A stretch of DNA of 64,000 bases from Parasedimentitalea marina (GTDB lineage Bacteria; Pseudomonadota; Alphaproteobacteria; Rhodobacterales; Rhodobacteraceae), in contig NZ_CP033219.1 in NCBI RefSeq assembly GCF_004006175.1, forward strand, positions 3,286,001-3,350,000, given 5' to 3'. Under the pieces are notes generated by a model. It was not told where the DNA came from and searched no databases. It saw only the letters and a program-made list of their open reading frames with translations. Made by a program: the position numbers and the translations under genes. How positions within the stretch are numbered: position 1 is the first letter of the stretch; every line of letters begins with the position of its first letter. Positions 43,965 to 47,576 of this stretch are shown one piece after another.

Positions 43965-46382
43965 TTACTTCTCAGTAAATTTCAACTCAATCCGGCGGTT
44001 TTGCGCCCGCGCCTGAGGGGTATCAGCCGTGTTGATGGGCTGGTATTCCCCGAAACCGTTGGCCGACAGTCGCCCCGGAGGGATGCCCAGGATCTCGACC
44101 AGGAACCGCACCACTGACAACGCCCTGCCCTGACTAAGCTCCCAGTTATCCGCATATTTGAAATGTCCAATCAGCGGTGTGTCGTCGGTATGACCGTCCA
44201 CCCGGATCACCCAATTGATACTGGGTGGAATGTCGCCCGCAACACTGCGCAGGATACTGGCCACTTTGGCAATCTCGATCTCACCTTCGGGCGACAATTC
44301 AGATCCACCCGGGGGAAACAAAACTTCCGAGGAAAACACAAACCGGTCGCCTTCGATGCGAACACCCTCTTGGTTGCCCAGCACGTCACGCAGGCGGCCA
44401 AAAAATTCTGACCTGTAGCGTTGCAGATCTTCGGCCTGGTTTTCCAGATCAGAGGCCCGGTTCGCCAGTTCAACCGCCTCAGCTTCCAACCGCTTGCGCT
44501 CGGCCTCTTCCAGCAGGCGGCGCTTGCGCTCTTCCGAGGCGGCCCGTGCCAAGGCCGAGTTCAAATCTTTACCCAGGTTTTGCAGCTGCACCTGCTGCGC
44601 CACATCACGGGCCTGACCATCGTCCAGCAGCGCCTGCAAACTGCCCAATTGGTTTCGCAACGCTGAAACCTGCTGATTTAACAACGCGGTCTGGCGCTGT
44701 GCCTCGGTGGATATTTCTTTTTCACTGGCCAAAGTTTCGCGCGCCTGATCTAGCAGGGCTGCCCGTTGCTGTGCCAGTGACAGCTGCTCAGCGGCCCGAC
44801 CTTCGGCATCGGATTGTTGCTCTAATGCGGCCAGCAAACGGCTTTGCAACACCTCCTGATCTGACGCCGCGACCTGTGCCTTTTCCAAAGCTTCCAATGC
44901 GTCCAGCAAACGACTTTCCACCGCAGCGCGCTCTTGCTGAGTTGAGCTTGCAGCGGTGCGCATCGCCGCAAGATCGGCGCGGGCCTGCTCCAGTTGCGAC
45001 GACAGTCCGGCCTCTGCGCTGGCAGCATCAGACTGTAGCTGCGCCAAACGCTGCTGCAATCCGCGTTGTTCGGCATCTGCAGTCGCCTGCAACGCGGCAA
45101 TCTGCGTCTCCAGACGGGCACGGGCCGCTGCATGTTCACTCTGCAAGCGTTGCAATTCAGACTGATAGTCAGACTGGGACTGCACATTGGTGGCGCGTTG
45201 ACTGGCCAGTTCCGCCGCCAGAGCGTCACGGGTTTGCGCTGCTTCGTCCCGCGCCTGCGTCAGTTCAGCGGTCAACCGGTCCCGCGTGGCAGTGCTGTCA
45301 GTGCGGATACGGCCCAGCTCGGCCTCCAGCGCATTGACGCGGGCCTCGGCAGTGGATTGGGTGACCTGCATCTGCGCCAACACCCGGGTCAGACGCTCAG
45401 CCAGTTCATCGCGCTCGCGTGTTTGGGCCCTCGCGGCCTCGATCGCGGTTAGCGCTTCGGCCAGTTTTTCATCCAAGGCCGCCTTGGCTACATTGGCAGC
45501 AGCCAGCAGGGTCAGCGTATCTTCGGCATCTTGCCGCTGTGCTTCAAGCGCCAGTGTCATTGCTGTCAGTTCGCCATCCGCGTTTGCCAATTTTTCGCGT
45601 AGCGCCTCGGCGGCGGCGGCTTCGACCAGACGGGCGGCCTCTTCATCGCTAAGCTGCTGGCGCGCCTCGGCCAGTGCCGCCGCCCGCTCTTCACTCAGCT
45701 GCCGAGAACCAGTCAGCTCGGCATCGCGAACGTCACTTTGTTGTTCGAGCCCAGCAATCATTGCCTCTAGCGCCTCGCGTTTGGCTGCCGCCAGCCGAGC
45801 AGCTTCGACTTGTAAATCAATTTCACCCCGGCTTTGTGCCAGGGCCAGATTCAGCGCCTCTTGTTCCGACAGAAGGTCAGCGCGCGCCAATTCCAACGCC
45901 TCGCGATCAGACTGCAAGGCCGCAATGCTGGCATTTGCCTGATCCCTGTTTGCCAGCAAAGTCGCCACCTGGGCCTCGAATGAGGTGATCTGCGCCGAAG
46001 CATCCGCCAGTTCAGCGGCCTGTTGATCGCGTTGGTTGGTCAGCGAGGCGATCAGCGTCGCCTGCTCGCCCAATTGAATTTGTGTACGATCCAGATCAGT
46101 CTGGGTGTCATTCAAGGTGGCGTTCAACGCACCCAACCGGGCGTCTAGTTGGCTATTGGCACGTTCTTCCAACCCCAGCGCGCTGGCCAAGGCACCCACC
46201 TCGCCTGCTAGCGAGTCCAGCTCACTTTCCTGATTGGAAATGGTGTCGCGCAGCACAAACTGGACAATCATGAAAATCGTAATCAGGAACATCAAGACCA
46301 GTAGCAGACCGGTCATCGCATCAACGAACCCCGGCCAGATCGAGGCCTGGAATCGTTGTCCGGTGCGCCGTGACAAAGCCAT
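43965..46382 (-). CDS. Giant MotB/OmpA-like protein with long coiled coil
   Basis: An 805-residue protein. After a short basic N-terminus, a single membrane helix (about 20-45) begins IWPGFVDAMTGLLLVLMF, with Asp21 in the position of the proton-binding Asp of MotB and ExbD-type partners. Residues about 45-670 are Ala/Glu/Gln/Arg-rich heptad-like sequence, predicted as an extended periplasmic coiled coil. The last 130 residues are an OmpA-type peptidoglycan-binding domain (VDGHTDDTPL, NRRIEL). Flagellar MotB and ZorB are about 250-350 residues, so the insert is the odd part. It is encoded 3 bp after its ExbB/MotA-like partner. Function unknown; it could span the periplasm as a motor-driven tether. 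Confidence 0.8.
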   Translation of the reverse strand: MALSRRTGQRFQASIWPGFVDAMTGLLLVLMFLITIFMIVQFVLRDTISNQESELDSLAGEVGALASALGLEERANSQLDARLGALNATLNDTQTDLDRTQIQLGEQATLIASLTNQRDQQAAELADASAQITSFEAQVATLLANRDQANASIAALQSDREALELARADLLSEQEALNLALAQSRGEIDLQVEAARLAAAKREALEAMIAGLEQQSDVRDAELTGSRQLSEERAAALAEARQQLSDEEAARLVEAAAAEALREKLANADGELTAMTLALEAQRQDAEDTLTLLAAANVAKAALDEKLAEALTAIEAARAQTRERDELAERLTRVLAQMQVTQSTAEARVNALEAELGRIRTDSTATRDRLTAELTQARDEAAQTRDALAAELASQRATNVQSQSDYQSELQRLQSEHAAARARLETQIAALQATADAEQRGLQQRLAQLQSDAASAEAGLSSQLEQARADLAAMRTAASSTQQERAAVESRLLDALEALEKAQVAASDQEVLQSRLLAALEQQSDAEGRAAEQLSLAQQRAALLDQARETLASEKEISTEAQRQTALLNQQVSALRNQLGSLQALLDDGQARDVAQQVQLQNLGKDLNSALARAASEERKRRLLEEAERKRLEAEAVELANRASDLENQAEDLQRYRSEFFGRLRDVLGNQEGVRIEGDRFVFSSEVLFPPGGSELSPEGEIEIAKVASILRSVAGDIPPSINWVIRVDGHTDDTPLIGHFKYADNWELSQGRALSVVRFLVEILGIPPGRLSANGFGEYQPINTADTPQARAQNRRIELKFTEK

Positions 46383-46385
46383 GGA

Positions 46386-47576
46386 TCAGGCCTCGCCGTT
46401 GTCTGGGGCCACCTCGGCACGTGCCCGGCCCCGCGGGCGGGCAAACGTCTTGACCAAGACATCGATGTCTCGCCGCAGCTCTGCCAGGCTTTCCTGACGG
46501 CCGGCCGAGATTTCCTCGAGGATGCGCAGCATCTGTACATCAATCGAGCGCAATCGCATCCGGCTTTCAGCGTCAATGCCAGCATCACTGCCATAGGCGC
46601 GCATCACTTCGGTCAGCGCCTCTTGGCCAATGGCAACCCGCTCTAGCGAGGCGGCAACTGTGTCACTCTGGTCCTGACGATCGTTCATCGCTGAAATACT
46701 GTCGACCAGATGAGTCAGCTTGTGGTTGACCATATCGCGACCCTCGGCAGATTGCACAAACAGCGCCTGCAAAGCATCCATCTGTTCCGCCATGGTATCC
46801 AGCACCTCGGTCACCACTCCGGTTTCACTTGTGCCTTCTTCCCCGGATGAAAAACTAACCCGGGTAAATGTCGACAACCATTCCTCCAGTTCGCGATAAA
46901 ATCGGTTCTGGCCGTGACCTGCGAACAGTTCCAGCAAACCCACGATTAACGAGCCAGCCAACCCCAGCAAGGACGAGGCAAAGGCAACGCCCATGCCACC
47001 CAGTTGGTCTTCAAGCCCGCTCATCAAACGTTTGAACACCGCCAGGCTTTCTTCTCCATCCCGTGGTGACAGGCTGCGAATGGTTTCCACGACAGCCGGA
47101 ACAGTGGTTGCCAGACCGTAGAAGGTACCCAACAGACCAAGGAAAATCAGCAGATTGACGATATAGCGCGTGATCTCGCGTTCTTCGTCAATGCGATTGG
47201 CAACAGTGTCCAGGATCGAACGGGTCGAGGACGAGCCCAGCTGCATCCGCGCTGCCCGCGATTTCAGCATCGTGGCCAGCGGTGCCAATAACGACGGCGC
47301 GCGAACGTCGTCACGGATCTCGCCGGCGGCAAAACGTTCGATCCAGCGCACTGACCCGATGAGCTGAATTACCTGCCAGAAACAGGCCAGAACGCCAAAG
47401 ACAAACACCAACAGGATAAAACCGTTCAGCCAGGGATTGGACTGAAACACAGGCAGAACCCGCGGCAGGGCCACAAAGGCGCCAAACCCTGACAGGCCCA
47501 GCGCGATCAACATCATCATGATTTGACGGACCGGTTGCGAAAATTGCACGCGGGTCTCGCTATGTGGCTGCGCCAT
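46386..47576 (-). CDS. MotA/TolQ/ExbB-like proton channel protein
   Basis: A 396-residue inner-membrane protein with four hydrophobic helices: about 18-40, 48-72, 138-162 (LLIFLGLLGTFYGLATT) and 192-218 (GMGVAFASSLLGLAGSLIVG). The last two match the pore helices of the MotA/TolQ/ExbB family, including the GLLGTFYGL and GMGVAF signature. A cytoplasmic tail of about 175 mostly helical residues follows, recalling ZorA. With the Asp-bearing partner encoded next, it should form an ion-driven complex. No flagellar, Tol or Ton genes are adjacent. First gene of the pair. Confidence 0.87.
   Translation of the reverse strand: MAQPHSETRVQFSQPVRQIMMMLIALGLSGFGAFVALPRVLPVFQSNPWLNGFILLVFVFGVLACFWQVIQLIGSVRWIERFAAGEIRDDVRAPSLLAPLATMLKSRAARMQLGSSSTRSILDTVANRIDEEREITRYIVNLLIFLGLLGTFYGLATTVPAVVETIRSLSPRDGEESLAVFKRLMSGLEDQLGGMGVAFASSLLGLAGSLIVGLLELFAGHGQNRFYRELEEWLSTFTRVSFSSGEEGTSETGVVTEVLDTMAEQMDALQALFVQSAEGRDMVNHKLTHLVDSISAMNDRQDQSDTVAASLERVAIGQEALTEVMRAYGSDAGIDAESRMRLRSIDVQMLRILEEISAGRQESLAELRRDIDVLVKTFARPRGRARAEVAPDNGEA

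Follow-up and report, generated by a model that had tools for sequence, protein, structure and literature searches.

Two adjacent genes within a 64,000-nt stretch of the Parasedimentitalea marina genome (NZ_CP033219.1, positions 3,286,001 to 3,350,000; hereafter the window) probably encode an A-B motor of the 5:2 type, which a continuous coiled coil, kept in register, would tie to peptidoglycan and which would have a housekeeping role in the envelope rather than one in phage defence. The gene for subunit A (46386..47576; 396 residues, with a MotA/TolQ/ExbB/ZorA fold according to an AlphaFold2 model and structure matches) precedes that for subunit B (43965..46382; 805 residues) on the minus strand, to which all coordinates given for the pair refer. 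The two genes are separated by 3 bp, the most frequent spacing in the family (53/159 pairs). An initial annotation of the stretch had described a MotA/TolQ/ExbB-type protein 3 bp ahead of an 805-residue partner with a membrane Asp (Asp21), a coil and an OmpA domain, and the coordinates, the model and the domains agree with this description.

Subunit B begins with a membrane helix (46248..46337) containing the sequence WPGFVDA, the Asp21 of which (46320-46322) was unchanged across 45 aligned relatives. The membrane motif was matched in 155 of the 159 paired B proteins and the other four, one with a mis-set start, retain the Asp when read by eye. The helix is followed by a coiled-coil stalk (44379..46247, about residues 46-668), free of Pro and Cys and with a 3.49-residue periodicity, and by an OmpA peptidoglycan-binding domain (43995..44321, residues 688-796) most like that of MotS/MotB. 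The motif NxxL[ST]xxRAxxV, which we take to be characteristic of OmpA domains, is present in 142/159 B proteins. The expectation that the middle of B would be coiled and not globular was borne out by the helical stalk and its periodicity, with breaks in the monomer model. The 54,495 stalk residues of the 159 pairs contain 0.02% Pro and no Cys, with 149 of the stalks lacking Pro altogether.

A regularity was found in the stalk lengths. Length was taken as the distance between the membrane Asp motif and a conserved motif, LGxxLNxAL, giving 587 residues for the window and 133-1300 residues across species, an approximately ten-fold range; B proteins containing X (locus L175) and proteins without the motifs were excluded from the register tests. 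The label ‘Rhodobacteraceae’ denotes genomes of the window's own family (code f1), assigned from the names of relatives. Outside this family, 35 of 49 unique stalk lengths (133-595 residues) share a single class modulo 7 (0 mod 7), with a best period of 3.50 (Rayleigh p 4e-14, 49 unique lengths). Nearest relatives outside the family were also compared in disjoint pairs, which limits the effect of shared ancestry; 40 of 54 such pairs differed in length, and in 25 of these 40 the difference was an exact multiple of 7, against 5.7 expected (p 3e-12). As a control, the tail of A gave exact multiples of 7 in 2/35 cases outside Rhodobacteraceae and 1/13 within. In the window's genus, the B frame has 806 residues in five of eight genomes and 792 in two, a step of 14 residues, and is split into two frames in one. 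The heptad stepping shows that the coil grows in register, and the pattern of lengths is likely to reflect selection for coil register.

Whole B proteins range from 315 to 995 residues in 95 loci outside Rhodobacteraceae and from 459 to 1502 within, the latter maximum coming from a sample that includes loci picked as extremes (L173-L192) and is not random. These ranges leave out a Rhodobacteraceae B reading of 2363 residues (L175, 1406-8497) that crosses an assembly gap and contains tandem copies of a 339-bp unit, in array rows of 5.8 and 6.2 copies. The length of the A tail correlates with that of the B stalk (Spearman 0.37, kinship ignored). The coil motif TLT[LM]LAA, which may be a docking or hinge site, is carried by 52 of the 57 B proteins from Rhodobacteraceae and by none of 117 others.

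The periplasm is about 20-30 nm wide and a coiled helix rises 0.1485 nm per residue. At this rise the straight length of the window's stalk would be 87 nm and that of the family's stalks 20 to about 190 nm, so the long stalks exceed the usual periplasm width and cannot stand upright there; judging from the model, they would either follow the wall, lengthwise or at a slant, or double back at the model's breaks. The earlier proposal of a long rod reaching the cell wall therefore stands in so far as B is a long coil ending in a peptidoglycan-binding domain, but with stalks of up to 1300 residues a straight rod cannot simply span the periplasm. Moreover, in relatives whose A proteins are 87-88% identical the stalks are 404 and 223 residues apart in length, equal to 60 and 33 nm of straight coil, and such differences are not easily explained by the suggestion (PMC9389320) that length variation in the MotB family tracks periplasm thickness.

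The AlphaFold2 model of A (predicted local distance difference test, pLDDT, 82.7) contains four long helices. Using VIA-align, the model matched TolQ, ExbB, ZorA and MotA structures, with TolQ/ExbB chains ranking top. A sequence profile of A compared with the PDB gave coiled-coil and other unrelated chains, with no MotA, TolQ or ZorA among the best 60 chains listed, and hence the fold link of A rests on the model. The Pfam MotA_ExbB model gave E 0.058, under its cut-off, and a scan against NCBIfam gave no match for A; NCBI names close relatives ‘biopolymer transporter ExbB’, the best named relative being from Parasedimentitalea (95% identity). The third long helix carries the motif GLLGTF (47121..47138, residues 147-152), and GLLGT[FV] is found in all 145 paired A proteins that reach it, a further 14 ending before the motif at a locus edge. 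The Thr of GLLGT and the membrane Asp are known for their role in the ion path of ExbB/MotA-type systems, and by analogy the motif of A would take part in ion passage. A helical tail (46386..46850, about residues 243-396, pLDDT about 50-83) would lie on the cytoplasmic side if A is oriented like MotA and ZorA.

Phylogenetic placement was examined with a tree built from 153 columns of 52 aligned A-type proteins, for which the program warned of long branches meeting and an unsettled bootstrap. The A proteins of the family formed their own clade (support 96/95), with the four ZorA3 proteins as its sister group (97/88); a further branch (97/91) divided TolQ/ExbB/MotA from the ZorA side, where this clade lies. 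The grouping with ZorA3 survived in quick trees from which MotA, then MotA with ZorA1 and giantA, or TolQ/ExbB had been dropped (Shimodaira-Hasegawa-like approximate likelihood-ratio test, SH-aLRT, 87, 98 and 88%), and A was separate from ZorA in all three. Profile comparison of A by hhalign gave 97.8% for ZorA3, 97.5% for vWA_A, 94.2% for giantA, 65.3% for ZorA1, 63.8% for TolQ, 56.7% for ExbB and 8.6% for MotA, where giantA and vWA_A are labels coined here; the vWA_A group is nearly as close as ZorA3 by profile, but not in the full tree. The phylogeny proposed in the initial annotation, in its best tree, placed A in a clade of its own and not inside a characterised family, and the tree, hhalign and reduced trees agree with its view of a separate motor-type pair, outside the MotA, TolQ, ExbB and ZorA groups tested.

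The nearest clade, ZorA3/ZorB3 (PADLOC type III Zorya; DUF802), also combines A and an OmpA-bearing B in one operon, but with reversed proportions. ZorA3 has 675-1074 residues (four proteins) and ZorB3 215-227, whereas A has 267-453 residues in the tree set, with a short tail, and B has 315 to 1502. The A tail, taken from GxxGT to the C-terminus, measures 150-316 residues in 140 pairs, while nine ZorA proteins compared have 652-1074 residues as a whole. The TolR of the window's genome, at 160 residues, contrasts with an 805-residue, OmpA-bearing B. ZorAB of types I and II, which form a clade separate from the pair, are described from cryo-EM (PMC11890865) as 5:2 motors with a wall-binding B, in which ZorB D24 is required for defence; their long rod is the cytoplasmic tail of A and not the stalk of B. 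The GldM dimer, a four-domain shaft of 18 nm (PMC9389320, in excerpt), likewise makes a long shaft of a B-type subunit, although the B shaft of the present family is a helical coil that, when straight, would reach at most some 190 nm. Of the features that mark 5:2 ion-driven motors, the A fold, an N-terminal membrane helix in B and a conserved Asp were found in the pair from its sequences and single-chain models.

The initial annotation called the pair unassigned and regarded it as a roseobacter machine, and neither description can be kept. B falls in an NCBI-named family, PRK09039 ‘peptidoglycan -binding protein’ (NCBIfam NF006542, PRK09039.1-1, 869.6 bits against a cut-off of 388; related models NF006542-NF006546). 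Literature searches on the A-B pair and PRK09039 found no study of function; the label appears on a Methylobacterium protein in a table of BLUF proteins (PMC8508746), and a second paper, PMC5735904, is listed as containing it. A was matched in 188 of 289 alphaproteobacterial genomes sampled across the class (161/235 of good quality), by which a machine restricted to roseobacters was rejected. Most genomes have a single match, and 184 of the 188 reached E 4e-39 or better, with four weak matches at E 1e-16 to 3e-30. Within Rhodobacteraceae, 96 of 100 genomes gave a B match with E no higher than 1e-50. Among 249 Pseudomonadota genomes, strong A matches outside Alphaproteobacteria numbered four (G445, G505, G539 and G520), of which that in G505 holds an internal stop; the loci of the other three (L193-L195) each have a full B beside A.

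A and B also travel together. B was in reach of 159 of the 177 A matches below E 1e-30; these 159 pairs represent 157 distinct A readings, with some genomes under two locus identifiers. Of the 18 matches without B in reach, 14 had fewer than 1500 bases left, L055 has B split into two open reading frames, and the others are L100, L111 and L114. B is next on the same strand after A in 72 of 80 named loci; these loci were the top matches for a query headed by a single Kiloniella-like A and are biased to the relatives of that protein.

In many lineages a third gene joins the pair. Of 73 named loci that leave 600 bp or more ahead of A, 67 have an OmpA-family gene as the immediate upstream neighbour of A on its strand, L042:7966-8997 being an example. 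The gene was also present in 4/16 other loci of the phylum sample and 1/2 further loci; class-sample loci L009-L034 have too little upstream room to judge. Nineteen of these genes overlap A by 4 bp. Their products, 114-578 residues as read, are rich in Pro and Ala in the middle and, by eye, begin with a stretch that resembles a signal peptide; the Pfam OmpA model matched 29 of 32 scanned, and four proteins of the family gave no NCBIfam match over cut-off. In many lineages the unit therefore comprises three genes and two OmpA domains, as against a two-gene form in the window's lineage, the upstream gene being a candidate third component. When the window's genome was searched for the third gene, five OmpA-type matches were returned, the best at E 8e-10, and all of them lie away from the pair.

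In the proposed mechanism, five A subunits would surround two B subunits in the membrane, and the ion path would run between the two kinds of subunit, using Asp21 of B and the A helix with the conserved Thr151, so that ion flow turns the A ring around the B dimer. Beyond the membrane the dimer, presumably parallel, would continue as a long two-stranded coiled coil, in register and without interruption, at whose end the OmpA domain would grip peptidoglycan. With B held by the wall, A and its helical tail would be the moving part, as in the ZorAB model. Since stalk length varies widely and mostly in whole heptads, the stalk may act as a tether or torsion shaft in which coil register matters more than reach, and long stalks would be slanted, lie along the wall or be folded back. 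The role would be a housekeeping envelope task, such as wall sensing or coupling of the inner membrane to the wall, and in many lineages the secreted OmpA-domain protein encoded just upstream would work with the pair.

If so, the ion-driven rotary motors gain a further branch that is widely distributed and uncharacterised. The pair also joins a non-flagellar A to an OmpA-bearing B, whereas a 2025 survey reports no discernible OmpA homology for the non-flagellar B subunits that it covered (PMC12505986, section 14). Specialists would find novelty in the stalk, stepped in heptads and free in length, and in the OmpA-domain gene upstream of A; the family would offer a natural series on whether a motor shaft requires fixed length, fixed register or neither.

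Several observations weigh against the motor with an in-register stalk. Register locking is looser in Rhodobacteraceae, where 19 of 21 nearest pairs differed but only 6/19 by exact multiples of 7 (p 0.04). Sixteen of the 19 differed by 0, 3 or 4 modulo 7 (p 0.0003), and the 39 unique lengths (255-1300) gave a weaker signal, with a best period of 3.48 and p 0.025 at 3.5. Duplication of heptad-coding DNA could give heptad steps without selection for register; tandem arrays are present in 24/159 B genes, with periods that are multiples of 21 bp in 23/42 array rows, so such duplication contributes to the length steps. The same steps may occur in other coiled-coil proteins as well. For B, the model is of a monomer, its global confidence is low (predicted template modelling score 0.31) and it has four breaks, possibly hinges or fold-backs. 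For A, TolQ/ExbB slightly outscore ZorA in the fold comparison and the approximately unbiased (AU) test does not reject a grouping with TolQ/ExbB (p 0.11). The upstream OmpA-family gene is missing in 12 of the 16 other phylum-sample loci, in all three non-alphaproteobacterial loci and in all 31 Rhodobacteraceae loci with room (18 + 13), with none beside the window's pair. Finally, G311, a complete genome of the same family and one of the four B misses, has neither A nor B, and the pair is consequently not always needed.

A more specific form of the motor reading can be held only tentatively. Here the pair would be a wall-anchored rotary motor, sister to Zorya, in which rod length has shifted from the tail of A to the stalk of B; a continuous coil of 20 to about 190 nm would serve as a lateral torsion shaft along the wall, its length drifting while the register between the Asp and the wall domain stays fixed, with a secreted OmpA partner in many lineages.

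It is rather unlikely that the pair is instead a Tol/Ton-like force transducer, in which ion flow through A moves B, and B or the upstream OmpA-domain protein pulls on the wall or outer membrane, aiding constriction alongside Tol-Pal. The top fold matches of A and the second OmpA-domain gene of other lineages are in keeping with this, as is linkage to tolB, which lies within 40 kb of the pair, at 10-33 kb, in 43 of the 50 genomes that carry both on a single contig (105 with both among the matches listed; for example G059 C83, G120 C2 and G009 C1). However, the two are 2.5 Mb apart in the window's genome and unlinked in six others, and the shared neighbourhood also has glycolysis genes, efp and inositol phosphatase, so that the linkage may be old gene order only. 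TolB co-occurs with A (183 genomes with both, 5 with A only, 86 with TolB only and 15 with neither, of 289), and replacement of Tol by the pair was rejected on the grounds that TolB is unmatched in just 5/188 A-bearing genomes. The window's genome already has tolQ, tolR and, by eye, a tolA-like gene, and both tree and profile comparison place A closer to ZorA3 than to TolQ. The window's genome encodes four further MotA/ExbB-family proteins (TolQ, followed by a TolR-type gene, two ExbB/TolQ-like proteins, and a MotA with MotA_N), which makes the window's pair a fifth system.

Highly improbable is a chromosomal Zorya-family defence, in which phage damage to the wall would be sensed and a cytoplasmic effector driven through the A tail. 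PADLOC ZorA3 proteins are the nearest relatives of A, and ZorB profiles match B (best 66 bits); on the other hand, the best ZorA score of A is 38.9 bits against over 800 for the four ZorA3 compared, and the A tail is short for a ZorA. A scan of nine neighbouring genes with PADLOC gave no ZorC-G match, the other matches being to generic ATPase, methyltransferase and NifS-type models, and the absence of effectors nearby makes phage defence unlikely, as do the class-wide spread, the mostly single match per genome and the housekeeping context. A phage origin was rejected after a PHROGs scan gave OmpA-type families of unknown function, a single weak spanin match and a single weak match for A. That the pair is a spare or ancestral flagellar-type stator is scarcely credible, since despite the four long helices of A and the MotS/MotB-like OmpA domain, the AU test rejects a union of A with MotA (p 0.005), B lacks MotB_plug (PF13677; Pfam at E up to 1 returned OmpA and ADIP only), the genome has a separate MotA and a MotB_plug match elsewhere, and a MotB_plug match is missing from 65 of the 188 genomes with A (123 with both, 53 with MotB_plug only and 48 with neither; Fisher p 0.04). 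Co-occurrence points neither to flagella nor to a Tol substitute.

A cell-wall role had first been argued from neighbouring M23 peptidase and extensin-family genes. The argument from these neighbours is weak; the M23 gene, which is convergent to the pair and overlaps the end of clpA by one base, occurs in 27 of 52 Rhodobacteraceae loci (some genomes counted twice), and neither M23 nor extensin-type genes were matched in any open reading frame of the 80 named loci (phmmer, E 1e-5). The upstream OmpA-domain gene supports an envelope role better than they do. The common Rhodobacteraceae order is clpA-M23-B-A-chaC-DUF2125, and nearby clusters include, by Pfam, inositol monophosphatase, EF-P, transketolase and GAPDH, as well as ZapA and an ABC transporter.

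A number of related loci were seen in passing. In the vWA_A group (L201 2018-3807 and L202 889-2726), relatives of A are paired with a B that by eye is vWA-like and not OmpA-like; Pfam gave no vWA match in two B-type partners, and these pairs are possibly another motor type. ZorA-like A proteins of 1100 residues or more occur in several lineages (L242-L252, for example L245 1219-4707). A 0.9-Mb genome holds an A match with two internal stops (G068:C2:75972-76748), which suggests decay, and G015 contains a 965-residue open frame with a B-type C-terminus (L032 576-3473) together with a second match in G015:C4. Members of the pair also appear in records titled gammaproteobacteria, betaproteobacteria or Mesoflavibacter (L045, L062, L112 and L099), through either wrong bins or transfer. 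Finally, one contig (JAMFRO010000072.1) yields the locus from either strand, as L085 and L087, which points to an assembly artefact or to a duplication in inverted orientation.

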